Shown one piece after another: positions 24,183-53,471 of a DNA stretch of 64,000 bases (the first letter of the stretch is position 1; each line of letters starts with the position of its first letter). The position numbers were made by a program, and so were the translations under genes. The DNA comes from a virus, in the IMG/VR virus record IMGVR_UViG_3300025030_000074, positions 19,084 through 83,083 of that record; one strand, 5' to 3'. Below the pieces are notes generated by a model. The model was not told where the DNA came from. It made no database searches and was given only the letters and a program-made list of their open reading frames with translations.

Positions 24183-25394
24183 ATGTGCGGATTAATAGGA
24201 TTTTCAGGAAAAGAAAATTTTAATACTGAAAAAATAGGAATGCTCCTCTTATATAATGATATAAGAGGAGGCCATTCCACAGGAATATGGACTAATGAAA
24301 AAGATAATATAGTTGTAAATACAGGAACCGCAGCAGAAGATTTTTTACCCGACTTTAAGATAAATCCTGCAACCATGTTTATAGGGCATACCAGATTTGC
24401 TACTATGGGAGCAAGGTCTAAGGAAAATGCTCATCCATTTAGATATGGAAACGTAATAGGAGCCCATAATGGTACCATTAATAATTGTAGATTAATATGT
24501 ACCAAATATGATGTAAACTATATAGATGATGTAGATGTAGACAGCCAATCTCTATTTATGCTTTTAGATAAGTTGCAAAATGAAGAGATACTGGAAAAAT
24601 ATAAGGGAGCTGCGGCTATCTTATTTACAAGAAGCGATGGAAGCTTATATGCATATAGAGATTCTGAAAGACCTTTATTTAGAGGAGAAACTGATGAAGG
24701 AATATATCTGTCTTCTATAGAATCAAGTCTAAAAACAATAGGATGCATTAGAATAAAGTCTCTCGCTGAAAATTTTTTATATAAAATTGTAGATGGTAAA
24801 ATCATAGATACAAAAAAGATAAACAGAAAGAATATTTTAGAAGAGGAAAAAATACAAGAAGATAATAACTCTTACAATGGATATCCAAATAACTCTTACA
24901 ATGGATATCCAAATACTAATACACACAATACTGGGTATTCAAATACTGATACCATAAAACATCATCAAAACTGTTTATGTCAACCCTGCATAACTAAAAG
25001 AATGGAAGAAGGCCCATCTAGGATAATAGAAAGACCTGGGTTTTTTGGTGTTAAAAATTCTATAGAGCCTTCAAAACTTTTAGGAATGAATGGACGGCCT
25101 ATAAACGAAAATGAAAACGATATAGAAACTCCTTTTCTTGATGATTACATAGAAGATAAAAAAGTAAAAAAGGACCCTACTGTATTAAGAGCAGAAGATT
25201 TTAAGGAAATAGAAGCTCAATATTGGAGTATCCTTGAAAACGTAAGGGAAGGATTAAAGGATATAAAAGAGGGAATACCTTATCTCAATGAATTTAATTT
25301 AGAAGATGATAAAAAAGAATTGCTTATGAAAGTAGAGGAAAGCATTGATTTAGTAGAAGAGGATATTTTTGAGATGTTTAAGCTAAATGAATAA
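24183..25394 (+). CDS. class II glutamine amidotransferase-like protein
   Basis: 403 residues. Met is removed to expose Cys2 (MCGLIGF), the Ntn nucleophile; GHTRFAT (about 62-68) and GAHNGTI (about 93-99) bind glutamine. The first 215 residues resemble the glutaminase half of GlmS/PurF. The rest is not a synthase domain: it is a linker with a 24-bp tandem repeat (NSYNGYPN twice, bases about 24864-24911), a CLCQPC motif and an acidic helical tail. So the ammonia it frees must be used by another protein, most likely the neighbouring ATP-grasp or amidoligase. Overlaps the amidoligase gene by 8 bases. Confidence 0.9.
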   Translation: MCGLIGFSGKENFNTEKIGMLLLYNDIRGGHSTGIWTNEKDNIVVNTGTAAEDFLPDFKINPATMFIGHTRFATMGARSKENAHPFRYGNVIGAHNGTINNCRLICTKYDVNYIDDVDVDSQSLFMLLDKLQNEEILEKYKGAAAILFTRSDGSLYAYRDSERPLFRGETDEGIYLSSIESSLKTIGCIRIKSLAENFLYKIVDGKIIDTKKINRKNILEEEKIQEDNNSYNGYPNNSYNGYPNTNTHNTGYSNTDTIKHHQNCLCQPCITKRMEEGPSRIIERPGFFGVKNSIEPSKLLGMNGRPINENENDIETPFLDDYIEDKKVKKDPTVLRAEDFKEIEAQYWSILENVREGLKDIKEGIPYLNEFNLEDDKKELLMKVEESIDLVEEDIFEMFKLNE

Positions 25395-27117
25395 AGAGAA
25401 AAAAGAAATAAAGTTTGAAATTGGTGATATAGTAACTTGTAGCAAGGAATCAGATTTAGTATTCGGAGTTACCAATTCAAACATGTCAAAAGGCAAGATA
25501 AAAAGTATTGAGGATGATAAAACTGTTACTATAGAAGTTTTAGAACATAGATGTCCCATATTTATTGGAAGAATAGAAGACGAAGTACCTTTAAAGTATC
25601 TTATTTTAATAGAAAGAAAGCCAAAAGTAAAAAGAGCTCCTAATGGATATGTCACTCTATACAACGGAGAAATATGCAAAAAGGAAAAGGCCTCTTCTCT
25701 AGATGGAAAATACTATATTAAGGATGTTTCTATGTTTTGCATAGAGAGTAAATGGTATGGGGTAGATAACCCTTCTATTGCTCTCGATAGGCGTAATAAT
25801 ACCTATACTTTAAAAGGATATCTTCAATTAGGAATAGTGGGAATAACCAAAGAAGGAATGCCTGAAAAAGGATATTTTAGTAGGTTAGAAAGTTGTCCTG
25901 AAGCGAGATTATATGAAGGAGGTGGCTATAATCAATATTCTATATTAAGTATGGAAGTGGCAGAACAAAATAAGTTCTGGGAATGTCTAAATTCCGGTTA
26001 CTTTTATGCAAAAGATAGAATAAGCGAATACTCTGATCTTCATAAAGCTCAACATATAGATTTTAATCATACTATTTATCCTAATGAAATTGAATCAAAA
26101 GTCGATAATTTTCAGTATGGAATCCTATCTCCTTCTTACGTAATAACGGAAGGAAAGAGATATTCCTATGGAATCGAAATAGAGACCAGTGCTGGAAGAC
26201 TTCCTGCACATGCTTACTATAAGAAGTTGAATTTAAAATGTGTGCATGATGGAAGCATAACGGGAGGAGAATGGGTCACTGGTATCTTAACAGGAGATTC
26301 AGGATTTTTACATCTTAATAAAATATGTTGCGAGTTGTCAAAGAGATGTTCAGTAGATGCCAAGTGCGGGTTACATATCCATGTAGGAGGAGCATTATTC
26401 AACAAAGAATTTACTGTTTACTCTTACTTATTAGGAAGAAAGTTAGAAAAAGATTTCTTTTCTATAGTACCCCTATCCAGAAAAGAAAACAGATTTTGCA
26501 GAATTTTGCCTTTTTTAGAAGGACTTTCTGATAATAAAACCTATTTGCATTCGGAAAGTATCGTAAGATATCATGAGAGAATAGAGGAAGACTATTCTAA
26601 AATATATTCCTATTTAAGTGGTGGAAGTCCGGCTTCCTTTAATATGAATAAGAAAAAAAGTAATCCAAATGGAAGATATACTTCTTCTAGATATCATTGG
26701 TTAAATCTGGTTACATGCAACTTCTGTACAAGGCACGAAATTCCCATTGATGTAAATAATATAGACTCCTCTTCAAATATATATACAGTAGAATTAAGAC
26801 TTCCTAACGCAACTTTGAGTTATGGGAAGATAAAGTCGTGGATACTAATATTTATGGCCTTTGTGTGGTTTGTTGAAAATAGAAAAAGAGATATTCTGGA
26901 AAACAAAGACATAAACCTGGAATATGTAATAGGAGAAGCTTTTCCCAAAAATGGAAAATTTCTTGTGGAATTTATAAAACTAAGAAAAAAACTATTTAGT
27001 GATGAAGAAAATAATGGTATTAATAATGAAGCTTTTGAATATAGGAAGGAAAATAATGCAAGTTACCCAGAAAAAGTGAGCCAAATAATAGAAAACAATA
27101 AGAAAGCATGTGTTTGA
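25387..27117 (+). CDS. amidoligase with N-terminal SH3-like barrel
   Basis: 576 residues. Residues 7-75 form a small-barrel segment (KFEIGDIVTCSK ... GKIKSI). An unknown middle follows, and the amidoligase domain starts near 258: YGIEIE (261-266), HDGS (287-290), GLHIHVG (328-334) and a late ELRLPNAT block. These Glu, Asp and His residues are the ATP/metal site of the Amidoligase_2 family, related to gamma-glutamylcysteine and COOH-NH2 ligases. Overlaps both neighbours, which are both class II amidotransferases, so the three are made together. Confidence 0.85.
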   Translation: MNKEKKEIKFEIGDIVTCSKESDLVFGVTNSNMSKGKIKSIEDDKTVTIEVLEHRCPIFIGRIEDEVPLKYLILIERKPKVKRAPNGYVTLYNGEICKKEKASSLDGKYYIKDVSMFCIESKWYGVDNPSIALDRRNNTYTLKGYLQLGIVGITKEGMPEKGYFSRLESCPEARLYEGGGYNQYSILSMEVAEQNKFWECLNSGYFYAKDRISEYSDLHKAQHIDFNHTIYPNEIESKVDNFQYGILSPSYVITEGKRYSYGIEIETSAGRLPAHAYYKKLNLKCVHDGSITGGEWVTGILTGDSGFLHLNKICCELSKRCSVDAKCGLHIHVGGALFNKEFTVYSYLLGRKLEKDFFSIVPLSRKENRFCRILPFLEGLSDNKTYLHSESIVRYHERIEEDYSKIYSYLSGGSPASFNMNKKKSNPNGRYTSSRYHWLNLVTCNFCTRHEIPIDVNNIDSSSNIYTVELRLPNATLSYGKIKSWILIFMAFVWFVENRKRDILENKDINLEYVIGEAFPKNGKFLVEFIKLRKKLFSDEENNGINNEAFEYRKENNASYPEKVSQIIENNKKACV

Positions 27118-39035: not shown

Positions 39036-42000
39036 CTATAATATTCTACTAAAAGCTTTCAGCGCCTCATCCGGATCTTTAATTGCCTTCAACTTAACCC
39101 ATATTGGAATCATCTCTTGGGCTCTTGCTTTGAGCTTATTGTATCCCTTTGGCCACTTTCCAGTATTTCTTTGAAATTCCTCCCCCGGATGAGCAAATTG
39201 GACTAAAAGTTTTCCTGCAGAATTAATAATCCCCTGGGTGGCTACTGGACTTTTAATTATCTTAAAAGTTTCATAAGGATTAAACCAGAATGATAATTCT
39301 GCTGCAAGACGCCTTGATTGATATCTTATAAATTTATAAGACCAATTCTTTTTATCGTCATCATCATCTCCAGACATTAATAAATATGTAGACCATGCAA
39401 GGATTATGACAGCAGTGTCCACTACAGTAGCTAGAATCGCTTTTCTTTCTGTAGGAGTCATAACTGTCCATCTCATATCGATCTCTTGTTGTATCCTAAA
39501 TAGATTATTCCAATGATACTTGACAAATCTAGCAGAAATAGGATAATGTCCCTCTTCCCATCTAGCAGATTCCTGGTTAAACGTTCTTTTTAACCAACGT
39601 CTTCCCCACCTTCTATTAAAACCCGGCATAATCCAAGATCTAAACAGCATAATAGGTCGTATAAGAGTATATCTGTTTGCTACGGGCCTATCAAAAGCAT
39701 TTCTTATACCTTCTATTTGAGTTCTGGTAGCATGAATACGATTTCTCAAATCCTGTAAGTCTTTTATTCTTATAGTATAACCCTCTCTTGGACTGTGTTC
39801 AAAATAGGCAATGTTTTTATCAAGTTTAATTCTTCCTTTACTATCGGTAGCATGAAGAGCTTCCCAGAGAGTTTTATCCTTTCCAGCATCATTCTTAAAT
39901 ACCCTTCCATCTTTATTATATACCTTAAAGGTTTTTAATACCGCTATCATAAAAGTAACAGCTAAATCATGGTCGGTTCCAGATTGTATAAATAATGCTC
40001 CGGGAGTCCTTCTTACAAAACTTGCAGTCTTAAGATTTTTAAAATCTTGTTCAGTATGTCTCGCAGGATCAATCATTTGAACAATTTGTCCTATTATAGT
40101 TTCAGGAACAGCTTTTCCCATATCAGAGAAAAAGTTATGCATATTAGCAAAATAGGCTACCTCTGCCTCCGCTAAAGTAGTAGGAGTGGCAAATTCCTTT
40201 CCAAAAGTCTCTGTCCACGCATGCATTTTACCCCTAACCAAGTCAGTTGTAGCTTGAAAAATATTACCACCTAGCATCAAAGCAGATGTATAACTTAATG
40301 CTAAATCTACCCATTTATCTACTTTAGTTCTGGTTTCTCTAGTTCTTCCATAAAAATTAGATTCAATAAATGCTTTAAAATGTTTCTGTATATTAGACTC
40401 TTCATGCTTACTCTTAAGCTCTTTTCTCTCTAAACCAAATACCTTAGCCGCTCTTTCAAATATATTTCCTTCCTTGGGAAATCGCCTTGCTTCCATAGTA
40501 TCTCTCATAGAATCAACAATATCTGCAAATCCAGCTTTATGTTTATATTCTATTGCTGCACCAACATACCTTCCTATTGAACCAAATAAATCATAGGAGA
40601 CATCTTTTGCATCTATATCAAAATTATAGTAGATAGGGATAAGGTTATCGTCACCAGATGCCATAGGACCATATATCATCTCATCTCTTTCGGTTTTTTG
40701 AATAGTTTCATTATACCATTCTTTAACCATGGCTATAGGACCTTCAGTAAACAGTTTAGCTCGTGAAGTTTTATAGATAGCGGGTAAACTAAATCCTCTT
40801 CTAGCATCTTCTGAATACACCTCTTGATGTTCAAGATACAAATTAGTGATATAATCAAGGTATTCTCTTTCAGGAGCACTTAAGGACTCAAATCTCTTAT
40901 TACTGTATTTTTTGCTATCAGGTTCAGTAAGAAAGTTCTTAGCAATATATTCTATTCCTTCATATTCTATCTTAAACTTGCTTGCCAAATCATATACTTC
41001 TCCCGTAGCTTGCCTACCATTACGTTCCATCCATAGTTTAAATCCAAGAGTATCCGCTCCTCCAAATTCCTTTTTCTTTGCATCAAGAACTTCTTTCCAA
41101 TCCTTTCGTAATATAGTATTTTTTTCATACCATTGAGCCGCTTTCATCTTACGTTTTCTTGTAGAACCAATATTCTCAATCGAACTATACATGTTTTGTT
41201 CGGCTTTATTGAATTTTGTCCAATCTAAAGCAGAAAGAAGCGAAGGTCTTACTTTAGGTTCATATTTACCCTCTTTCTCGTTCCATTGATAATCTACTAC
41301 TTCATCTATTAAACTTCCATAAATAGCCTCAGGAGTTTGGTCTCTGAATTTCTTCATAGAGGATATAAACTTCTTAGTCTTTTCTTGAAGGTCGGCTATA
41401 ACAGGTACTTTCTCATCTGTAGCTTCATAAAGCATCTTCTTCATACTTTTAGCAAAAGCAGCGAACACAACATCATCTGATCCAATAGCTTCATCAAGAT
41501 AGAGCATTGCAGAAGTCTCATCTCTATCAGCAATAACAAATTGTTCGGTAAACTTTTCAAGATCTAATTTCTCATCTTCAGTTTTAGCGCTTCTATTTAA
41601 TTCTTCATGAGGAACCTCTTCCCATAGTATTTTTGCCTGAAGAGGAATACCTTCTTCAAGATAGGATTTCTTTAGCTTGGGATAGGTGGCATTTATATAA
41701 TCTAATGCGGCTAATATGTCCTCTTTCAAGTCTTCTTTCTTCATATTTCCCAATCTGATCTGCTTATCTATAAAAGACCCAAGTTCGGGAAATACATCTT
41801 CATAATGCTTTAGAAAGCTTCTAATATCTCTTAGTTTTCCTATCTTTGCTCTACCATTTAAGGTTGTACTATTTACTGTTTCATTAAATCTGTCCACAGT
41901 TTTCTTGGTATCTTCAAACGCTTTTTCTATAAATGCACCCATTCCTTCAAAATCCTCTATATCTTTAAGAGTCTCTAAAAGCTGTCCATACTTTTCTGAA

Positions 42001-45000
42001 GCTTCAAACTTTTTCTTTTTCTTTGCTAAAGTTATTTCCTTCTTAAGGATTATACGAACATCATCCACCAATTTTCTAAGAGAGGTTATATCTACCTTAG
42101 GAGACTTCTTGAATTCCTGTTCACCAACTTTTATATCTTTGTTCTCTATACTATCAGGATTTTTCTGGAAATATGTTCTTGAAGTTAGATTTCTAACATC
42201 TAGGTCAACTGTTACATCAAAAAGAATGTCGTTTGCAACTCCTCCATATACTCTTTCTATTTCCTTTCTAATAGAAACTTCTTTTGCACTTCTAAAGATG
42301 TTAAGAATCCTTTGAATTATTAACTTTATAGTACGTAAGATTTGACCTCCAATACCCTCTGTTTTAGATTCTTGCCATCTATCTACTATATGATCAGATA
42401 GGAGTTTACCTGCAGTTTCCTTTCTTAAATATTCATCTGTATCTGATATCAAACCTTCAGCAAGTTCAGAATATTCCTGCTTAACTTTTTGGTATTTCTC
42501 AGTTTGAGGAACTAATTCCATCATCCTTTTTACAAGAGGATTGTTATCTCCTAATAGTTCTATAAAGAAATGTGAGAATTCTTCTGGAATAGTTTTTAAG
42601 TTAGCCTTGCCTTGTGCCACAAGTATCAATCTTTCAAAGATTAAGGAGGCTCCTATGGCATCTACTCCAACTCTTTCCTTCATATTATCTACCATCTCTA
42701 AAGTAACTCCAAAAGGAGCAAGTATCTGAAGTAATCTTTTATCAAGTTCTATATCTCGTGCCTTTTTATCTTCAACCGTTATTTGAAGTAGTGGTTTAGA
42801 GGAAGGCTGTTCTTGAAGCTTATTCCTAACTTGCATTAATACTTTTCCGAGAATATTGGCCCCCTTTAAAGTTTTATCATATACTCCAAAAAGAGTATCT
42901 TTCCAATAATTCTTTTCAATTATTTCTTGAGTTCCTGTATTAAGTAATTTTTGTGTTAAATCAGGGTTATTTTGGAACTTAGCTTTCACAGCATTCATCA
43001 TATACTGCAATCTATTTTCTTCATTTTGGTCCAAAGTAAACTGCCTTCTTACCTTCCTACTTGCAGCCCCACCTTGTTTAGAAATTATAGCTATTTTAGA
43101 TTTTTCTTCAAGATTACTAGTTCTTTGAGCCATATAGTAACCTTCAGAATTCCAATATTCATTTCCATGTTCGTCTTTAATAGGAACTTTTAATTGTTCA
43201 AAATTTGACATAAAAGTTTTAGAAGTTTCCAAAGCTGCATCATATCTTTCTTTAGTATATTGCTCTTCTTTATTAATAACTATTTTACTTTTTCCTACTT
43301 CTTTTATAGGTTGTTCTATATCTACAATTTCCTCTTCCTCTTCTATAAATTCTGCTCTATCTTTTGCAAACTCCTCTTTCATTATAAATCCATAAGAATG
43401 GAAATCAGATTTTTTAGAGTAATCTACCCTATCTCTATTTGTAGGAACAATAGTTTTAACGTTATCATTATCAAAGAAGTATTCTTTAAGATGATTCTTG
43501 AATCCAAGAGAAGTTATCTTATGATATACTCCTAAATTAATATCTCCATCATGAAATCCCATAAGTTTATATAACCTAGTTATAGGAGGGGATATTAATG
43601 CTCTGGTCTCTGGATGTACTGCCTTTGGCTTAAGTATCTTTAGATAAGGATAAAATCGTTTATTACCTTTAGAATCTACAAAGGAAGGGTTACTATCTTC
43701 TCTTAAATCTAATAAAATAGAAGTAGGTATTTCATCTTGTTTTTTAACTTCTTTTGCATTAAGAGGCTTTCCTTTATCATCAAGCCTAATTCTTGGTACC
43801 CATCTATTGTTAGAATTATTATGCCTTAAGAATTGATCAATGAAGTTATCCGTACTAACAGGATCATACTTAGAATATAATCCTCTTACTATATCTCCTT
43901 GAAAGTCAAATAATCCTTTACTTTGAAACCATTCCGAGGGAATAAGATGAATAAAACTTCCTGTTTCAAATCCCATACCGTTAGCAAGTAATGCATATTC
44001 TGCTAAATTACTTGCAAACTTCTCCGTTTTAGGATCTCTCAATAGTTGTTGCCAAGAATTTCTTATTTCTTCTACTTCACTGTCACTTAATCTACCCGCA
44101 TTATTAAAAAATACAAACTTTAAAGTTCTTGTGACATCTGCTGTGAAGAAAGGTTTGAGTATACTTACAAGTTTATTGCCTTGAAAGTCAGGATTTTCTT
44201 TCATCTTAATTTCCATATCCTCTTTTAAAGCAACAAGCTGATTTGCTATAGAATTATCTCCTATGAATAACCTTTCTCTATTTCCTTCTCCATAAACATC
44301 TTTAAATTTTGTAGTATCTTTTGAGTACAAGTATGTCAAGAAATCATAGTTTATGAGTTCCATATCCTCTTCTTGCAATCTAATTCCCAGATTTTCTTCT
44401 ATGGACTCTCTAACTGCTTGAAAAGAACTTTGCATCCAAGGAAATTCTTTGCTCAAATGTTCTATAGGTCTTCTATAGCCAAATTCTGCAAAAGCATATA
44501 ATCTAGGATACCTCTCTAAGGCCGGCCAAGTCTCCACTCTTTTTATTTGATTTAAAAAGGCTATTCCATCACTCATGGTAGGTCCTAGTCCCATAGCATC
44601 GGAACGCATGGAAACAGATTCCTGAAATATCTCTTCTCCTAATTTTCTATATTCAATAAAGGAAGATAATATCCTCATTTGAACCTCATAATGTTTTTTT
44701 GTTCTTTCTTCACCTTTTGCCTTTATACCATTTTCAAGTTCCTTAGTAGAAATATCAAAGAATCCCTTCATCATCTTGTTAATTCCAGATAGATTTTTAA
44801 CCTCTTCAATAACCTGTTTTAAAGCTTCCTTTTCCGCTACTAATGTTTCTCCTTTATTTCCATAGAGTTCAGAAAGTCTTCTTATTATTGGTTGTGAGAT
44901 GAAAAGGTCTGCAGTTTTTAACCCATGACCAGATCCTACTATAACATCCCATACTCTACTTGTAAATCTACTTAGATTAAGAATGCCCATTATAGGTTTG

Positions 45001-48000
45001 TTAGCATTATCTACAGTAGCACTTATACCTTCTGAATAATCTTCGGTTATCAGATTACCATCAAGATTCTTTATACCATGTAAATTATTCTGACTCTTAC
45101 CATCAAATATTATCTCAATTCTAATATCTTTTTTGGTATCCTGTCTTACAATATGCGCATTTTGAAATATGACAAAATCAGAACGTAGAACCGTTCCTGC
45201 AAGGTTTCTGAAATAAAACTCGTCTTGAGTACTTGGAAAAGTCCAGATAAGAGGTTTTATTTCCAAATGCTTAAGTATGAAGTCCGCATGAAGTTCCATG
45301 TTAACTGCGGTAACAGGGGTTATCAATTCCTTAAAGGAATTTATGTTTGACAGGATAGAAAGAGATATATCTATAAGAGCATTTTCTCTTTGTTTTCTTG
45401 AGTTTTCTGATATATATTTAGTATAATCGTACCTTATCTTAGTAATCTTTTCTTTATCCACGCTTAATTCATAATGGGGAAGTATCAAAGACGATTTATC
45501 TATGTCAAAGTCAGAGTTTTCTTGGGCGGTAATACCAGTAGGAACCATTATTATCTGTCCCATCTCCTTAGGTAAAAACGCCTTTATAACAACTGGAATA
45601 GAGGATTTTTTCCCATGTCCTGGAGTATGATATAGCACACCTTGTTTTAAGGAAAGAGGAACATTAGAAATATCTAATTCCTCGTTTTCTATTCCTTTAA
45701 AGCCTTCATCATATAACTTTTCTAAGAAAGGATAAGGAAGCATTATTTCTGCAGCTTTTACTTTTTCTCCATCAACAACTACTTCAACAAAGTTTAAACC
45801 TTCATTTTCTTCATATCCAAAATCAGAAACTAATACAGAATATATTCCAGGAAGTTTTTGTTTGGTAACTTCATTCTTAAACCTGGAAGTCAATACTTTT
45901 TCAGCCAACTTTGAGATAGTAGGAAACGAAAGAGGAGCATTTTCAATAGTTTTTTCTATATCAGAGGATAAAGGACCTTGTTTGCTGTCCTTTAATACCA
46001 GTTTCTTCATCTTATCTGGAGTAGATTGTGCTTTTAGTTCCTGATTAAAGCTTTCTTCTATATTGTATGCACTTATACCTTGATATAAATCTTTAATTTC
46101 TTTTCCTTTGTAGGGTTTCCCTTCTATATGATAGAGAGTTTCTTCGTCTAAAGAGTCAATATCAGCTATGATTTGCTTTGCAAACTGAACTCCATGTAGT
46201 TGCTTTGGTAATTCTTTATAAGGAACTTCTTGCGATTCTCGTCTATTTTGAGAACGTAGTTTAGTTTTATGCAGATTTTCAGTATCAGTATGTGCTCTTA
46301 CTCCACTAGCTCCTACCTTAACTCCAGTCTTAAAGTTAACTTCATCTACCTTTTGTTCTTCTGCATCCGTTCTCAGCTTATCTAATTTCTCAAATCCTTT
46401 TCTCTTTGTAAGAGCTGGAAGTAAAGGTATAATAGAATGCTTTATCTGAATAGGAACCATCATATTATCCTCAAGATGAAGTCCAAAATAAAAAGTTTTA
46501 AATGGTCCAAATAGAATTCTATCTGCTATAGGAGTAGGGTCTCCCCTTTTTATAGATTCTAAAGCAGCCTCATATTTTGAAGTCCATACACCTTTTCCCT
46601 TAAGCAATCCTATGTAGTAATTTAAACCAACATATCCTTGAGCATCTGTTCTATTTGTTTTCTTATACTTTTCAACAAGCTTATTTGCTTCTGTAGTAGT
46701 AAGTTTTAGATGTTCAAGTCCTTTTATCCAACTTTCAAAGAGATGGGGCTTTTTAATTTCCATATCAACTATCTCGTCTTCTAAAACAGTACCTTGAAAA
46801 ACTTCAGATACTCCTCCTACTTCATCTATCCTATAGTCCAACCCAGTACTACTTGATTCATAGGATCTTTTAGATAATGCTTCAGTGGATTTATAGAATG
46901 CAATATCTCCGTTTAAGATTCTCGTTATCTCCGCATAAGCGGATACATAGTTATATACATAATCCTCTATGAAAGCTTTTATGCTTCCTCCATAAACATT
47001 TTTTAAGGATTCAGAATCTAATTCTATGTTTATAAATTCTCCTTTTTCATTTTTACCTATTACTCCAGTAGACAAAAGCAATTCTGTTTGTGTATTTATT
47101 TCTCCTTGTATAGAATCTTGTATAACTTTTCTTATCTCCTCTTTAACAGTGTCATCTACAACAACAAGGTTACCTTCTTTTATTAATACGTTATTTAGCT
47201 CAGGAAAAAAGTGAAACTTAAATGCATTACCAGATCCGTCTCTTTTATTTTTGGTATTCTCCTTATAATGATAATGTGATATTAACTTATCTTCAGGTAG
47301 GTCTATTATTTGTTGTTCAGCTTGCTTTATTCTTGCATATTCCTGAAGTACCAATTTCATCGTCTCTCTTTTTCTTACATTTACATCTCTGGAAAGCTTA
47401 TCAAAATGAATAAAATGAGTTCTTCCTTTGTCCGAAGGAGTAGGAATAGAAAACCAACCTCTCTTGCTTCCCCGGTTCAAAAAGAAATTCATCCAAGTTC
47501 TGGCCCTATCAAGCTTTGACATTTTCTTATAGGATACTCCGGGAATTCCTGGAACTTGTAGACGAACGGTATCAAAGGTTGCGACTTCTAATGCACTCCT
47601 TGTGTTCTCAGAATCACGTATTTTCTGTAACCATAAGGATTGTAAAGTTGGATCATTAGCAACAGGATTGTTGTAAGGAGATTCAAGATAAGTTTCAACT
47701 AACTGCTTTACTACACTTTCATCATCACTTTTAAACTTTGCAAACTTCTTGGACATATCACTATTAGGAGATAGACTCCATGCCCTATTACCCGTTCCCA
47801 TTATAAAGGTTCCAGTAAAGGAATCTACTTCAAAGACAGTTTGAATCTCTGCTAACCTTCCTATATTTCTACTTTCTGTATCAAAAATATTTATTCGCTC
47901 AGATAGTTTTTTAAAAAGAAAGACAATACCGCCTTTACCAGTAAGAATAGAGATAAACTCTTCCGCATCTGCTTGTGGTCTTTTAGGTCTTATTTTCTTC

Positions 48001-51000
48001 TTTATATGAAACCTTATAGATTCCGGAGAAATTCTTATTCCTATTGCATCAAGTATCTTTGTAATACCTTTTATATTTTCCTCTTTTACCTCTTTTGTAT
48101 CTTTAATCTTTTCTGCTATTTTCTCAATAGCATCCAGCCCCCTCTTTGCAAGATTAGGATTTATATTACCATCTTTAAGTAATATTTTATTAACCATTGG
48201 ATTGTTGAAATCCTCTCTCCATTGACTAACAACTTGTTCGGTTATATCTTGTCTATTAGTTTTAATAGGAGTATAGCGTCTCTTTCCAGTTAATCCAGAA
48301 TATACTAATGTAGAGAACCGCATGTGTTGGTTGGAAAAGGTTCTAAAGAATAGACTTTTAAACTGTTCAGTAACCTTGTTTTCAATATCCCAAGCTATCT
48401 TCTTAAGTGTAGGTCCATGAGTGGGGTTACTCCGTAATATATAAATCATGTCCTCCAGAGTCTCTGACCCTGCTAGAATAAGTCTTATATGTGAATAAAC
48501 AGAATTGAAATTGGAACCCCTGTTTCTACCATATACATTTTTATAAAATTCCCATTCTCCTGGTTTTATTTCTTTGCTAACTTCAGGAAGAAAATAAAGA
48601 TATTCAGCAATTTCATCGGGCAACCTTCTTTCTACTTCAAACCAAGAAACACCATAAACCTTTTCTCTTTGTTCTCCAGGTTCAATATCAAAGTCCTCAT
48701 CTTGCTTTTCCATCTTGCTCCACATCTTTAACCCAATATATTGTCTAATATCGCTTAAAGCAAGATCCCCTATCAAACTCTTAGTTATCTTTCCTTCTGA
48801 GTCTACTCCAAAGTTATCAAGAAGTTTTCTTATACTTATGGTAATATCATCTCTCTGTCCTTCTGTTATAATTTTGTTTTGAAAGTCCTCTTCTACTATC
48901 TCCAAGTCCTCTCTAAATTCAGCTTTTATTTCCTCAAAGATGTCTTTTATAGAATCTTTAAGACGAGACCTGTCTACAAGTTCTCCGCTTTGAATCCTTT
49001 CATCTATTTTTTCCTTTATAGAAAAAGCAACAGTTCTTATTGCATCAGCCTGTTCTACCGGACTAGTAGAAAAAGATTCTATAAGACGTGGAAGTCCCTC
49101 TTCTACTAAGGCAGCTTCTCCTCTAAATTTGGCTACTTTTATATGCTCAAAAAGTTCTTCTATAGTAAGGTTCATACCTAATAGATGTTTAATATAGGTA
49201 AGTATCATCCTAAAAAACTTCTCTATAGCACCTTTTTCCTTTTTTGTATAAGTGTTTTTACCAGATATAAGAAATTCAGCAAAATCGTCAGCAAGAAACT
49301 CTTCTACTTCTTTATCATTTTTAGCTTGTCTGTATAGCTTTGTTTTATTGGAGTATATTGCTCTAGCCTCTTTAAGAATAGATTCCCATTGTTCGGGAGT
49401 TAAAAAAGAATGAGATACTACGTGGAAAGCTTCATGATACTCAATACCTAATGGTGCCATCTTAGATAATGTCACCATAGCATCATGAAACTCTCCGTAA
49501 GCATATTGACCTGTTTCAGCAATATGAATAAGACCTTCTATTATTTCTAAGGGAACATTAGGAAATTTCTTTTTAAACCAAGTCTTTGCTTTGTCTGGAT
49601 TAATTCTTACAATACTATTAGGATCAAGATATTCGTAATTATCAGATACTTTTAACCTTCTTGCATTCTTAAAATCAGGACGTTGTCTTTTTGTAGTGGG
49701 AATTTTTGTTTCCTTCGGTGGTTTTTCCTTTATAGTAGGAATTTCTTTTTCCTTTTCGGTACTTTCTATATTAGGATCAAAAGAAAAGGAAGCATTAAAG
49801 AAGTGGTTTCCAGGAGCAACATCGGTGGTAATTATTCCTGTTTCATTTAAAAAGGTATTGTAATTATTATATGTAGTTCCTGTTATAGGATCAACATATT
49901 CTCCAGAAGTGTTTATACGTTCTTTTAGAACTCTTCTTTCTTTAGTTAAAAGAAGGGCTATAATTCCATCACGATGACCAGGAAGTTCTTTGAGAATATT
50001 AACGGTATGATCACTTTCGTCTATGGGATTGTAATATACTAATTTAGTACCCCTAATTTGAAATTTCTGTTTTCCTGTTGTCCTATCTCCTTGATAAACA
50101 ATTTCATTTATAGCATCTGCTTTTTCTTTCCAGTTATCTCTACCTTTTATCTCAGAAAGAATGGTTATTACCTTCTCTTGTGCTTCCTGGTTAAGAGATG
50201 AAACTATCAATTTAGCAGGAAAGGGGTCTCCTGCTCCATTGGGTATTACTGCATATACGGCATTATTGGTACCTTCTTTGTAAAGTCTTAAAGATTGTTC
50301 AATATCACTCTTTTCTGGAACAGAATATTCACCGGATCCTTCAAATTCGCTATAGATAGCAAGTACCGTTTCCTCTGTACCGGGAACAACGTTACCAATC
50401 TTATTTGTATAGGTTAAAGTACTCGGTTTTACCAATATTGGATTTCCTTCTCCATCTCTTAAATTATTTACCCAACCTCCAAACTTTTTAACTACCGTTG
50501 TTTTAAAAGACTTTTTGGAATCAAATATCCTCTTCCTTATTTTATCAAGGACTTTAAATCCTAAACCAGCTTCATTAAGTAATCGTGCTGTTTCTTTATC
50601 AAACTTCTTTATAGCATTTTCATCAGTTGCTGGAAGTTGTCCAACGATAGTCCATCTATTAGTAGTTGTATTTAAAGCCTCTATCTTTATATGAATAGTT
50701 TTATGGCTGTCTTTAAATCTCTCAAAGCCTTTAAATTCTGTTCCTATTGAGAATCTTATTTCTGTACCTGAAGGCAGAGAATCTATAGAGTTGACAAAAG
50801 CAAAGTCTATTACTCCTTCATTTTTAAGAGAAGTAGGAACGAGATTTCCCGGTTTATCTCTTTCCAGAACAGATAAAGGTCTAGTACCTTTCCCATATTT
50901 AGAAGTTCTTTTTACATAGAAACCATCTGGATTTTTCTCATACTCATATTCATTAGCCGTACTTTTCAGTATGGTTGTATGTTCAAGAGAACCTTCAGGT

Positions 51001-53471
51001 ATTCCTTCTGCCTCAGCGGAAGTATCCTTTTTATCTTTTTCAGGATCCCTTTTTCCTTTGGAATCTTTAGCTGAATACCCAACGTCTCTCCAGACAGCCA
51101 CAAAGTTTAAATCTTCAAAGGATTCTAATATAGCATCTTTAAGAGCCTCTATATTTTTATTACGTTCGGTACTTGATAGTATTTCGGATATTACTTTTAC
51201 CCTAGATTCGGAATTTTCTCCAAAGTCAAATTCGTCTAAAAAATCTTTATTTATTCCTTTTGTTATAGCAACGTCTCTAATGCGTTCTACTGCACTAAAA
51301 ATTTCTTCTGGTATCTGGGTATCAAATCTTTTTTTAAGTGCCTCTAATGCGCTTAAATTGAGTTTAGCAACCTCTTTTGGGTCGTTGTACTGAGTAGATT
51401 CTACCTTTTCTTCCTTTTCCTCTGTTTTTTTCCTTTCTGAAGCCTTCTTTTTAACCTTTTTTTCCTTTTCTTCTTCCCTAACAATCTTTCTTTCTTCTTC
51501 TTTGTAAGATTCTTCTCTTTCTTTCTGCTTCTTAGTATCCTTCAAATCTTTAAAACCCTCTTTAAGATCTTCAAGATAGGAAGTTTGTATCTCTTTTGAA
51601 ACTTCTAGTTCTATTATCTTCTCATCTTCAGAAGATTCCATTATGTTTACCAATTCTGATACCTTTAGAACCTCGTCTTTTAGAATCTTTTCTTTAAGTA
51701 TTTTTCCTTTCTCTTTGAGAACATCTTTTTCTTTTAGGAGAACTTCCTTCTTTTTGTCTAAAAACTCAGTTGATTTCTTCTTACTTTTAAGTTTCTTTAT
51801 AGATATATCAATATTATCTAATGTGGACTCGATTGCTGCAAGTCTATTTTTCTTTCTCTTTAATTCTTCTATATCAGAAGTGGCCTTCTTATAGGAAGAT
51901 CTATACTTATTATATAGATTAGATATTTCTTCTTCCAGTTCTCCTATAGATTCTTCCTTAAACCTTTGTTCTACCAAGTTAGCTATCATCTCATTCTTTA
52001 TAATAGGATTAGCATATTCAGTATTGTATACTCTATTGTAGGTATCTTCAAAGAAATCTAAATCATCTAACCTTTTTTGAGCATCTTGCCTATATGTAAT
52101 TTCATCTAATCCCCACTTGACAGCATCTTCTTTTGACATATCCTTTATAGAAAATACTTCTCTTCTCATCCTATCTAAGGTTCCAGCAACAGCATTCTTC
52201 ATAGCCAAGTCAAAGAAAACCTTATTGGTAGCAGCCTTATACATCTCTTTATTCTTCAGAACAGCTGCATTTGCCATTTCTGCAGAATTTATAGCTCCCC
52301 TTCTTTCTATATCTCTTGACCTATTTGCAATATCACTAATTCCATGAAATACAGCTCCCCCCAAACCTCCAAACCAAGCAGCTGTCCAAGCCTCATCATC
52401 CCTTAAATATTCAGCAAACCTATGATAAAATGGAGTATCGGGACGTTCTTCTGTTCCAAACGCCATTCTGCCACTTCTTAATGCCTCTTCCTGCATTACA
52501 AATTGATCAAACTCTTCTGCGGATTCCTGCAATGTTGTTTTAACAAGTGGTTTTATTTTTTGCTTAAATCCTCTTGATAAAGCAGATGCTTTGGTATTTC
52601 CCATTCCTCTAAATAGAAACATATATTGAGGAATATCCCAGATAAGATTTGCAGAGTTTGCTACCCAAAGTTTAGATGCTTTCTTCCCAGCTATTAGTTT
52701 AGCATCTTCCTCGGAAAGTCCTTTTTTAATTCCTTCTTCGAAAAGTTGTTCCATAACAGGATATGACTCCATAGTATTTTCAGCCATACGAGAAGCTATG
52801 GCAGCACTTACTCCCTCAAGAGTTTGTATTCCTACCTTTCCAAGTTTAGCAGTTGCTTTAGTAGCTTTACCTAAAGCGGACACCGCTTTAGCTGCTCCCA
52901 ATGCAGGAAATATCAATGAAACAGTAGTTGCTATATCTGGAGCATGTTCTGCCCAGAAAGTAGGATCAGCTAAGTCAAATCCTTGTCTTCTTGACTCAAA
53001 AGTTCTTTCTATGGGAAAACCTTCTTCTATAGATTCCTGTCCAGATTTCATTGCATCAGCAACAAAATTAGTAAACTCGTCTTCGGTTCCTTTAATAAGA
53101 TTTGCATACATCTCCCAATCTAGAAGATAGGAAGCTGCTTCCACCGTTCCTAAAGTTAACTGTCCTCCAACTTGAGCAAGGGTATTTCCAAAGAGATTCC
53201 AAGCGGATTGATTCTCTGTCCTTATATCTTCTTGACGAAGTCCAGACATCAATCCAACGTCTTTCTTTATATCTATATTCTTGAATTCTCCAAACCTTGC
53301 CTGTGTAAGCCAAGGTTCCGGAAAAGATATTCCACCGGGACCTATATCGGATCCAGTAGATATTAAGGGAAGAACTTTAGGAAGACCTATACTGTTTAAA
53401 GAATCTTTTGGTTCCATAACCATCATATTCTCATCTAAAGGTAAGACTTCAAGGAATTTATCTTTTGGCAT
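39036..53471 (-). CDS. giant virion RNA polymerase polypeptide with metallopeptidase-like and NADAR domains
   Basis: 4811 residues. The N-terminal part has the NSANLIWDIPQYMFLF region seen in ejected crAss-like proteins and a charged coiled coil (about 490-720). HEAFH at 1346-1350 with a later FLADDFAEFL is a zinc-metallopeptidase pattern. DFDID at 2654-2658, inside GITAQENSDFDIDKSS, is the catalytic metal motif of the single-chain RNA polymerase of crAss-like phages (phi14:2 gp66 type). Residues about 3415-3555 are a NADAR domain: SNF, SEGYYMAQ (E3443), KFQNNPDL, LLNTGTQEIIE, GANILGKVLMQVR. A degenerate EEFSH copy follows near 3624, and one membrane helix near 4680-4700. It is expected to be packed in the virion and ejected to transcribe early genes. 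In other phages the functions are split among several genes; here they are one chain. Confidence 0.93.
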   Translation of the reverse strand: MPKDKFLEVLPLDENMMVMEPKDSLNSIGLPKVLPLISTGSDIGPGGISFPEPWLTQARFGEFKNIDIKKDVGLMSGLRQEDIRTENQSAWNLFGNTLAQVGGQLTLGTVEAASYLLDWEMYANLIKGTEDEFTNFVADAMKSGQESIEEGFPIERTFESRRQGFDLADPTFWAEHAPDIATTVSLIFPALGAAKAVSALGKATKATAKLGKVGIQTLEGVSAAIASRMAENTMESYPVMEQLFEEGIKKGLSEEDAKLIAGKKASKLWVANSANLIWDIPQYMFLFRGMGNTKASALSRGFKQKIKPLVKTTLQESAEEFDQFVMQEEALRSGRMAFGTEERPDTPFYHRFAEYLRDDEAWTAAWFGGLGGAVFHGISDIANRSRDIERRGAINSAEMANAAVLKNKEMYKAATNKVFFDLAMKNAVAGTLDRMRREVFSIKDMSKEDAVKWGLDEITYRQDAQKRLDDLDFFEDTYNRVYNTEYANPIIKNEMIANLVEQRFKEESIGELEEEISNLYNKYRSSYKKATSDIEELKRKKNRLAAIESTLDNIDISIKKLKSKKKSTEFLDKKKEVLLKEKDVLKEKGKILKEKILKDEVLKVSELVNIMESSEDEKIIELEVSKEIQTSYLEDLKEGFKDLKDTKKQKEREESYKEEERKIVREEEKEKKVKKKASERKKTEEKEEKVESTQYNDPKEVAKLNLSALEALKKRFDTQIPEEIFSAVERIRDVAITKGINKDFLDEFDFGENSESRVKVISEILSSTERNKNIEALKDAILESFEDLNFVAVWRDVGYSAKDSKGKRDPEKDKKDTSAEAEGIPEGSLEHTTILKSTANEYEYEKNPDGFYVKRTSKYGKGTRPLSVLERDKPGNLVPTSLKNEGVIDFAFVNSIDSLPSGTEIRFSIGTEFKGFERFKDSHKTIHIKIEALNTTTNRWTIVGQLPATDENAIKKFDKETARLLNEAGLGFKVLDKIRKRIFDSKKSFKTTVVKKFGGWVNNLRDGEGNPILVKPSTLTYTNKIGNVVPGTEETVLAIYSEFEGSGEYSVPEKSDIEQSLRLYKEGTNNAVYAVIPNGAGDPFPAKLIVSSLNQEAQEKVITILSEIKGRDNWKEKADAINEIVYQGDRTTGKQKFQIRGTKLVYYNPIDESDHTVNILKELPGHRDGIIALLLTKERRVLKERINTSGEYVDPITGTTYNNYNTFLNETGIITTDVAPGNHFFNASFSFDPNIESTEKEKEIPTIKEKPPKETKIPTTKRQRPDFKNARRLKVSDNYEYLDPNSIVRINPDKAKTWFKKKFPNVPLEIIEGLIHIAETGQYAYGEFHDAMVTLSKMAPLGIEYHEAFHVVSHSFLTPEQWESILKEARAIYSNKTKLYRQAKNDKEVEEFLADDFAEFLISGKNTYTKKEKGAIEKFFRMILTYIKHLLGMNLTIEELFEHIKVAKFRGEAALVEEGLPRLIESFSTSPVEQADAIRTVAFSIKEKIDERIQSGELVDRSRLKDSIKDIFEEIKAEFREDLEIVEEDFQNKIITEGQRDDITISIRKLLDNFGVDSEGKITKSLIGDLALSDIRQYIGLKMWSKMEKQDEDFDIEPGEQREKVYGVSWFEVERRLPDEIAEYLYFLPEVSKEIKPGEWEFYKNVYGRNRGSNFNSVYSHIRLILAGSETLEDMIYILRSNPTHGPTLKKIAWDIENKVTEQFKSLFFRTFSNQHMRFSTLVYSGLTGKRRYTPIKTNRQDITEQVVSQWREDFNNPMVNKILLKDGNINPNLAKRGLDAIEKIAEKIKDTKEVKEENIKGITKILDAIGIRISPESIRFHIKKKIRPKRPQADAEEFISILTGKGGIVFLFKKLSERINIFDTESRNIGRLAEIQTVFEVDSFTGTFIMGTGNRAWSLSPNSDMSKKFAKFKSDDESVVKQLVETYLESPYNNPVANDPTLQSLWLQKIRDSENTRSALEVATFDTVRLQVPGIPGVSYKKMSKLDRARTWMNFFLNRGSKRGWFSIPTPSDKGRTHFIHFDKLSRDVNVRKRETMKLVLQEYARIKQAEQQIIDLPEDKLISHYHYKENTKNKRDGSGNAFKFHFFPELNNVLIKEGNLVVVDDTVKEEIRKVIQDSIQGEINTQTELLLSTGVIGKNEKGEFINIELDSESLKNVYGGSIKAFIEDYVYNYVSAYAEITRILNGDIAFYKSTEALSKRSYESSSTGLDYRIDEVGGVSEVFQGTVLEDEIVDMEIKKPHLFESWIKGLEHLKLTTTEANKLVEKYKKTNRTDAQGYVGLNYYIGLLKGKGVWTSKYEAALESIKRGDPTPIADRILFGPFKTFYFGLHLEDNMMVPIQIKHSIIPLLPALTKRKGFEKLDKLRTDAEEQKVDEVNFKTGVKVGASGVRAHTDTENLHKTKLRSQNRRESQEVPYKELPKQLHGVQFAKQIIADIDSLDEETLYHIEGKPYKGKEIKDLYQGISAYNIEESFNQELKAQSTPDKMKKLVLKDSKQGPLSSDIEKTIENAPLSFPTISKLAEKVLTSRFKNEVTKQKLPGIYSVLVSDFGYEENEGLNFVEVVVDGEKVKAAEIMLPYPFLEKLYDEGFKGIENEELDISNVPLSLKQGVLYHTPGHGKKSSIPVVIKAFLPKEMGQIIMVPTGITAQENSDFDIDKSSLILPHYELSVDKEKITKIRYDYTKYISENSRKQRENALIDISLSILSNINSFKELITPVTAVNMELHADFILKHLEIKPLIWTFPSTQDEFYFRNLAGTVLRSDFVIFQNAHIVRQDTKKDIRIEIIFDGKSQNNLHGIKNLDGNLITEDYSEGISATVDNANKPIMGILNLSRFTSRVWDVIVGSGHGLKTADLFISQPIIRRLSELYGNKGETLVAEKEALKQVIEEVKNLSGINKMMKGFFDISTKELENGIKAKGEERTKKHYEVQMRILSSFIEYRKLGEEIFQESVSMRSDAMGLGPTMSDGIAFLNQIKRVETWPALERYPRLYAFAEFGYRRPIEHLSKEFPWMQSSFQAVRESIEENLGIRLQEEDMELINYDFLTYLYSKDTTKFKDVYGEGNRERLFIGDNSIANQLVALKEDMEIKMKENPDFQGNKLVSILKPFFTADVTRTLKFVFFNNAGRLSDSEVEEIRNSWQQLLRDPKTEKFASNLAEYALLANGMGFETGSFIHLIPSEWFQSKGLFDFQGDIVRGLYSKYDPVSTDNFIDQFLRHNNSNNRWVPRIRLDDKGKPLNAKEVKKQDEIPTSILLDLREDSNPSFVDSKGNKRFYPYLKILKPKAVHPETRALISPPITRLYKLMGFHDGDINLGVYHKITSLGFKNHLKEYFFDNDNVKTIVPTNRDRVDYSKKSDFHSYGFIMKEEFAKDRAEFIEEEEEIVDIEQPIKEVGKSKIVINKEEQYTKERYDAALETSKTFMSNFEQLKVPIKDEHGNEYWNSEGYYMAQRTSNLEEKSKIAIISKQGGAASRKVRRQFTLDQNEENRLQYMMNAVKAKFQNNPDLTQKLLNTGTQEIIEKNYWKDTLFGVYDKTLKGANILGKVLMQVRNKLQEQPSSKPLLQITVEDKKARDIELDKRLLQILAPFGVTLEMVDNMKERVGVDAIGASLIFERLILVAQGKANLKTIPEEFSHFFIELLGDNNPLVKRMMELVPQTEKYQKVKQEYSELAEGLISDTDEYLRKETAGKLLSDHIVDRWQESKTEGIGGQILRTIKLIIQRILNIFRSAKEVSIRKEIERVYGGVANDILFDVTVDLDVRNLTSRTYFQKNPDSIENKDIKVGEQEFKKSPKVDITSLRKLVDDVRIILKKEITLAKKKKKFEASEKYGQLLETLKDIEDFEGMGAFIEKAFEDTKKTVDRFNETVNSTTLNGRAKIGKLRDIRSFLKHYEDVFPELGSFIDKQIRLGNMKKEDLKEDILAALDYINATYPKLKKSYLEEGIPLQAKILWEEVPHEELNRSAKTEDEKLDLEKFTEQFVIADRDETSAMLYLDEAIGSDDVVFAAFAKSMKKMLYEATDEKVPVIADLQEKTKKFISSMKKFRDQTPEAIYGSLIDEVVDYQWNEKEGKYEPKVRPSLLSALDWTKFNKAEQNMYSSIENIGSTRKRKMKAAQWYEKNTILRKDWKEVLDAKKKEFGGADTLGFKLWMERNGRQATGEVYDLASKFKIEYEGIEYIAKNFLTEPDSKKYSNKRFESLSAPEREYLDYITNLYLEHQEVYSEDARRGFSLPAIYKTSRAKLFTEGPIAMVKEWYNETIQKTERDEMIYGPMASGDDNLIPIYYNFDIDAKDVSYDLFGSIGRYVGAAIEYKHKAGFADIVDSMRDTMEARRFPKEGNIFERAAKVFGLERKELKSKHEESNIQKHFKAFIESNFYGRTRETRTKVDKWVDLALSYTSALMLGGNIFQATTDLVRGKMHAWTETFGKEFATPTTLAEAEVAYFANMHNFFSDMGKAVPETIIGQIVQMIDPARHTEQDFKNLKTASFVRRTPGALFIQSGTDHDLAVTFMIAVLKTFKVYNKDGRVFKNDAGKDKTLWEALHATDSKGRIKLDKNIAYFEHSPREGYTIRIKDLQDLRNRIHATRTQIEGIRNAFDRPVANRYTLIRPIMLFRSWIMPGFNRRWGRRWLKRTFNQESARWEEGHYPISARFVKYHWNNLFRIQQEIDMRWTVMTPTERKAILATVVDTAVIILAWSTYLLMSGDDDDDKKNWSYKFIRYQSRRLAAELSFWFNPYETFKIIKSPVATQGIINSAGKLLVQFAHPGEEFQRNTGKWPKGYNKLKARAQEMIPIWVKLKAIKDPDEALKAFSRIL

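Follow-up and report, generated by a model that had tools for sequence, protein, structure and literature searches.

The locus described here raises the question of why the virion RNA polymerase of a phage should carry a NADAR domain, and what such a domain might do on arrival in a host cell. The window, by which we mean the whole 64,000-nucleotide stretch of viral DNA that was analysed and that makes up most of an 83-kb virus record, contains a minus-strand open reading frame (39036-53471) that runs for 4811 amino acids free of internal stops. By homology it encodes a giant virion RNA polymerase polypeptide in which gp45/gp47-like, gp50-like and gp49-like parts are fused. A preliminary description had called this product a virion RNA polymerase polypeptide, and the name is apt: the DxDxD motif of crAss-like virion RNA polymerases is present as DFDID at residue 2654, and local alignment with named genomes matches residues 2143-3352 to crAss001 gp50 and residues 3576-4788 to crAss001 gp49. 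From the N terminus, the chain comprises (all on the minus strand) a region like the "RNAP associated protein fused to zincin protease" (gp45) of the Intestiviridae (about residues 84-378; 52338-53222), which resembles Carjivirus gp45 and is matched by records of Crassvirales and similar human-gut phages; a zincin-like metallopeptidase domain with HEAFH at residue 1346 (49119-49589), which has its homologue within crAss001 gp47; a conserved upstream block of the gp50-like catalytic part (residues 2141-2430; 46182-47051); the catalytic core with DFDID at residues 2654-2658 (45309-45773); the start of the gp49-like part (residues 3576-3743; 42243-42746), a zincin-like relative in which HExxH is not kept; and the C-terminal gp49-like polymerase part (residues 4185-4800; 39072-40919). 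In one relative (L148), a zincin profile overlaps the beginning of this gp49-like part. As the window protein reads EEFSH at a site where 32 of 89 profile matches have HExxH, the segment could represent another zincin domain that has degenerated.

The NADAR domain (residues 3416-3553; 42813-43226, minus strand) occupies the gap between the gp50-like and gp49-like parts, which in crAss001 are separate adjacent genes. Residue 3352, where the homology to gp50 ends, is joined to the NADAR by an acidic linker, FIEEEEEIVDIEQP (43227-43415, minus strand), and about 22 residues separate the end of the domain from the gp49-like part. A complete NADAR domain had been read earlier at about residues 3415-3555, and profile searches bear this out. 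Pfam PF08719 matches residues 3416-3553 (E=1.3e-18; 68.2 bits against a cut-off of 35.1), spans profile positions 8-163 of 163 and is the sole Pfam family reported across the whole polypeptide; PHROG 1017 agrees (E=3e-30), and all of the NADAR motifs quoted in the preliminary description are present. A chance origin of the match is ruled out. When the domain was compared with the PDB by phmmer, the NADAR structure 8bau (1e-9) and YbiA, 2b3w (1.8e-6), were recovered. An AlphaFold2 model, for which the input was an alignment with 24 relatives, reached a pLDDT of 90.6 and a pTM of 0.83, and its only structural matches in the PDB at E<=0.001 were the same two entries, 8bau with bound ADP-ribose (TM 0.68) and 2b3w (TM 0.66). 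The predicted fold of residues 3416-3553 is therefore YbiA-like, and sequence and structure prediction establish the segment as a YbiA-type (Glu) NADAR domain, together with its position and the catalytic carboxylates that it keeps.

Whether this domain reaches the host cell with the genome is a matter of homology. In crAss001, gp47, gp49 and gp50 were detected in virions by mass spectrometry (PMC10172136), and we infer from the relationship of the giant to these virion proteins that it too is a virion component. By this analogy the NADAR-bearing polypeptide is likely to be delivered with the phage DNA, so that the earlier statement that it is ejected with the genome stands as a probable one, shown for its homologues only. 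The nearest polymerase relatives, L010 and L011 (about 32% identity), have fused front parts, a separate gp49 gene and no NADAR.

The active site, mapped by alignment with the numbering of the P. nicotianae NADAR (PMC11543638), retains its catalytic carboxylates. Glu3443 (43143-43145, minus strand) is the equivalent of E43, or E88 in the E. coli C7 enzyme, and Glu3519 (42915-42917, minus strand) that of E125, a position held by Asp in DarT1-linked NADARs and by His in the phage gp30.3 type. The equivalents of R79, R93 and D130 are also retained. The essential K50 (K95 in C7), a Lys in nearly all relatives, is replaced by Arg3450 (43122-43124, minus strand), K75 by R3472 and W133 by Phe, and the column of W89 is a gap. 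The Lys-to-Arg change noticed in the preliminary description is thus real and unusual; the Gly after the conserved Glu, to which it had also attached importance as a loss of the usual His, is not meaningful, since that position varies across the family (His, and also A, N, G and Q) and Gly is common there among relatives. With K75 and W133 exchanged and no clear W89, besides the change at K50, the ADP-ribose pyrophosphate site is by alignment partly altered.

These changes bear on a sceptical explanation, in which the window NADAR is catalytically dead and acts only as a folded linker joining the gp50-like and gp49-like parts. The replaced K50, K75 and W133, the unaligned W89, the long branch of the domain in phylogenetic trees and its place at the fusion point, about 22 residues ahead of the gp49 part, would all suit such a role. 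Nevertheless, we consider it improbable, as neither catalytic carboxylate has been lost, the equivalents of R79, R93 and D130 remain in place, confidence in the predicted fold is high, and the Glu, Lys and His of the active site are invariant among the His-type relatives introduced below. Moreover, the C7 NADAR carrying K95R still hydrolyses ADP-ribosylated guanine in vitro, though it does not rescue cells from DarT1 (PMC11543638). Since the same exchange leaves that enzyme active in vitro, catalytic activity of the window NADAR is plausible.

The Glu at the E125 position places the domain in the YbiA subfamily. The features of the DarT1-associated (BC4488) family are absent, with Glu in place of Asp and Arg3472 in place of the Lys115 equivalent, and Pfam reports no ART or DarT family in the giant. 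The gp30.3-type His is likewise missing from the window NADAR, whereas it is found in 53 of 53 giant-borne relatives. One could read the YbiA-type Glu, together with the membership of E. coli YbiA in this family, as the mark of a YbiA-like housekeeping N-glycosidase that clears damaged riboflavin intermediates and is carried by chance; the location in a virion polymerase, the repeated exchange and the patchy presence documented below do not fit this explanation, and we give it almost no credence.

A survey of other crAss-like polymerases, proposed in the preliminary description, shows that the association recurs. When the window polymerase core or the window NADAR served as a single-sequence query, the viral collection returned zero matches, so alignments were used as queries instead. 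Among 79 viral contigs chosen by polymerase sequence, three had a Pfam NADAR, two of them (L028 and L033) inside the giant and the third in a frame cut by the contig end; L033 carries both a NADAR and a SLOG domain (by Pfam) at the same gp50/gp49 junction as the window. A query built on the L028/L033 type then recovered 60 loci from the viral collection. In the 53 non-redundant loci of this His type, NADAR and virion RNA polymerase profiles shared a frame in 47, polymerase profiles lay elsewhere in the locus in five and were lacking in one, and the catalytic Glu, Lys and His were each conserved in 53 of 53. The NADAR was C-terminal to the polymerase core, the slot that it has in the window, in 37 loci and N-terminal in eight; in single cases it stood at the start of a gp49-like frame or just past the core motif. 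Polymerase-sized proteins with a NADAR also occur in the named Crassvirales cr126_1, cr272_1, cr130_1 and cr131_1, one of them annotated as a "DUF1768 domain-containing protein". The giant of cr130_1 (L188) is annotated "DprA-like", a label probably due to a SLOG-like domain as in L033. Two further loci came from one scan of bacterial genome assemblies, and in both the NADAR lies in giant frames of 2136-2243 aa adjoining virion polymerase parts. These crAss-like polymerase contigs (L192 and L193) were binned into a Bacilli and a Pseudomonadales metagenome-assembled genome, which reflects either mis-binning or a hint of hosts outside Bacteroidota. At another locus (L098), the polymerase frames are interrupted, which leaves short ORFs of 331 and 328 aa at the conserved domains, a pattern that resembles recoded or intron-rich crAss-like phages.

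Three simple accounts of this distribution were rejected. The NADAR is not peculiar to the polymerase of this phage, given 53 non-redundant relatives of which 52 have virion polymerase sequence. Nor is it a constant of crAss-like polymerases: six named crAss genomes examined have no NADAR, and loci chosen by polymerase only carried one in the giant in 2/79 and 4/80 cases, that is 6/159 or about 4%, which makes the domain accessory and not essential. Finally, NADARs of the window type are not generally found in giants, as 23 of their 24 other viral matches were stand-alone frames of 143-178 aa, the remaining one being a short fragment at a contig end.

Within 330 aa of the NADAR, the 53 giants contain a cpYpsA SLOG domain in eight cases, an ART-PolyVal domain in four and an AlkB-like 2OG-Fe(II) oxygenase in three, with an AAA/PIF1-like helicase match in a few. 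In 74 polymerases that lack a NADAR, DUF7831 appears ahead of the gp49 part in five and helicase-type ATPases in three, and a SLOG, DprA-like or RNase H domain occurs there as well; this variety indicates that the slot accepts various modules. DUF7831 (PF25176) is a recurrent occupant of it (5/74; best E 1.6e-33). Elsewhere in the window, on the plus strand between the DNA polymerase and helicase genes, a glutamine amidotransferase-like gene is directly followed by an amidoligase-like gene (24183-27117), and the pair could form an amidation pathway.

Two further explanations draw on these neighbours. In the first, the main rival to the reading that we prefer, the NADAR, once injected, has as its targets small ADP-ribose derivatives, the signals or toxic breakdown products of NAD-consuming host defences, and not modified DNA or RNA. 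Soluble ADP-ribose derivatives have been favoured as substrates of phage NADARs (PMC9503650); SLOG domains, for which a partner role in such pathways is predicted, occur no more than 330 aa from the NADAR in 8/53 giants and share its very junction in L033; and the window NADAR differs at the pyrophosphate site. Weighing against this, tested NADARs, including that of T4, act on ADP-ribosyl-guanosine in DNA and RNA, cleavage of such a signal by a NADAR is not reported in the literature examined, and Pfam detects no SLOG domain in the window giant. We regard it as a serious but distinctly less probable explanation, while acknowledging that sequence cannot separate a guanine-ADP-ribose substrate from a soluble one. 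In the second, the NADAR would be a built-in antitoxin that shields the phage or its proteins from an ADP-ribosyltransferase injected by the phage itself. NADARs do serve as antitoxins of DarT1 and YarT (PMC11543638, PMC11125620), and the ART-PolyVal neighbour of 4/53 giants would suit the scheme; yet Pfam finds no ART domain in the window protein, and 49 of the 53 relatives have none within 330 aa of the NADAR, making this very unlikely.

Exchange of the domain among polymerases was traced in the His-type clade, the Glu-type NADAR of the window lying outside it. A tree of 123 polymerases shows 11 changes in NADAR presence, eight of them forced by well-supported branches. L103 and L056, which share 71% identity across 1689 aa and 60% in the final 85, differ by one clean insert of ~174 aa that holds the NADAR. 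Between L101 and L112, the DNA flanking the NADAR on either side is 98.2-98.8% identical, while the NADARs themselves are 63% identical in protein. Conversely, L093 and L095 have polymerases that are 20% identical and share a 455-bp block, exactly over the NADAR, that is 98.7% identical in DNA; nothing else in 18 kb matches between them at the DNA level. More broadly, 930 of the 1136 locus pairs with any DNA match do so solely inside the NADAR, and matches within the domain concentrate at both of its ends. Synonymous third-base agreement is 0.63 at the N-terminal and 0.53 at the C-terminal end, against a codon-usage expectation of 0.44 and a value of 0.46 for the polymerase core of the same pairs, which are not independent of one another. 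The dN/dS between close NADARs, at 0.08-0.45, is that of purifying selection. From these facts together we infer that homologous recombination at the conserved ends exchanges the domain, with selection acting on its function. Assembly chimaeras are an unlikely source of this pattern, as L101 and L112 differ within the domain only and have near-identical flanks, the upstream part and NADAR of L095 recur in a second metagenome (L144, 99.9%), and L126 and L128 are identical over 15.8 kb.

How the window NADAR came to occupy this slot is less certain. In a careful tree the His-type clade has a support of 100/100 and the window NADAR stands apart on a long branch, the two being united in 0 of 200 bootstrap trees. 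Their union was not rejected by an AU test (p=0.166), and a quicker tree favoured it. Independent acquisition in the same slot is nonetheless likely. The fuller proposal, to which we give about even weight, is that the gp50/gp49 junction is an exchangeable effector slot in which a NADAR cassette is traded by recombination at conserved ends to match the defences of current hosts, and which the window phage filled independently with a NADAR of a different subfamily.

The reading that we prefer for the function, with somewhat better than even confidence, is that a YbiA-type NADAR acquired at the gp50/gp49 junction is injected and cleaves ADP-ribose from guanine early in infection, as an exchangeable counter-defence cassette. 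The polypeptide would travel in the phage head and leave it together with the DNA, like its crAss001 homologues. In the first minutes, ahead of phage gene expression, the NADAR would cleave the N-glycosidic bond to ADP-ribose, its likeliest substrate being ADP-ribosyl-guanine in the entering DNA or in early phage RNA, so that DarT1-like host ADP-ribosyltransferase defences would be unable to block the template read by the polymerase. As host defences shift, this accessory cassette would be gained, lost or swapped among polymerase genes. All NADARs tested, including that of T4, hydrolyse ADP-ribosylated guanosine in DNA or RNA in vitro (PMC11125620, PMC11833690). They are inactive on thymidine-ADP-ribose (PMC11543638, PMC11125620), and any DarT role is therefore limited to guanine (DarT1) marks. 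Several observations tell against this function. The window NADAR is divergent, with K50 replaced by Arg and a partly altered pyrophosphate site; the K95R form of C7 gives no DarT1 rescue; the T4 NADAR, active in vitro, gives no DarT1 protection (PMC11125620); and most NADARs from outside DarT1 operons do not rescue cells from DarT1 in vivo. The low prevalence of the domain (6/159) and the origin of the exchange evidence in the His-type clade also weigh against it. The counter-defence role first proposed for the domain thus gains from its recurrence, patchiness, purifying selection, cassette exchange and SLOG or ART neighbours in relatives, and is narrowed to guanine marks as far as DarT is concerned. 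On balance, the evidence suggests that the NADAR may enter with the polymerase as a counter-measure that is ready for use against host defences.

Among the phages of the human gut, the crAss-like ones are the most abundant. Defences that ADP-ribosylate nucleic acids or use NAD-derived signals act early in infection, and, if our reading is true, a counter-enzyme joined to the first-arriving polymerase would act ahead of any phage gene product. Effector domains in crAss-like polymerases may then point to ADP-ribose defences of the hosts that are largely unexplored, and the natural swap pair L101/L112 and the presence/absence pair L103/L056 make the question testable. Packaged NADARs were predicted in a survey of viral NAD systems, which describes phage NADARs as typically stand-alone (PMC9503650), with no mention of crAss, and a survey of polyvalent proteins (PMC5512222) does not mention NADAR. 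Neither NADAR nor DUF1768 was found in the crAss-phage literature searched, a search outside which several key papers fall. Within the literature searched, a NADAR in a crAss-like virion polymerase is undescribed.

Comparison with known systems places the window domain in a familiar family and an unfamiliar setting. E. coli YbiA and the P. nicotianae NADAR (8BAU) belong to the same YbiA branch and share with it a common fold, the SNF motif, the E43/E125 equivalents and the G-x-N-x-LG motif, but they are small proteins, whereas the window domain lies inside a 4811-aa polymerase polypeptide and has K50, K75 and W133 replaced and W89 unaligned. The DarT1-linked NADAR antitoxins (E. coli C7, BC4488 family) are of the same superfamily and may share ADP-ribosyl-guanine as substrate; in contrast, they have an Asp in the last strand and the essential K95 and K115 where the window has Glu, Arg and Arg, and no DarT match by Pfam accompanies the domain in the giant. 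T4 gp30.3 and other stand-alone phage NADARs are likewise phage-encoded and active on guanine-ADP-ribose in vitro, yet the gp30.3 type is a stand-alone gene with His in place of the window Glu, a His that the other polymerase-borne NADARs also have. The counter-defence role proposed here has a parallel in AdfN, which Johannesman and colleagues are said to have described in 2025 as an orphan phage NADAR that counters DarTG1, but AdfN is reportedly an ordinary phage gene expressed after infection and not part of an injected polymerase. The N4 virion RNA polymerase is of the single-subunit type and unrelated to that of crAss-like phages. Polyvalent proteins and the N4-type polymerase with its zincin (PMC5512222) are nonetheless giant injected multidomain proteins that combine a zincin with mixed effectors, as the window chain does with its HEAFH zincin and NADAR, its injection being proposed by homology. 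The crAss-like virion RNA polymerases (crAss001; phi14:2 gp66) share the DxDxD motif, the gp50-like and gp49-like parts and the zincin, and are virion cargo in crAss001, whereas the window giant fuses all of these parts in one chain and holds a NADAR inserted at the gp50/gp49 junction.
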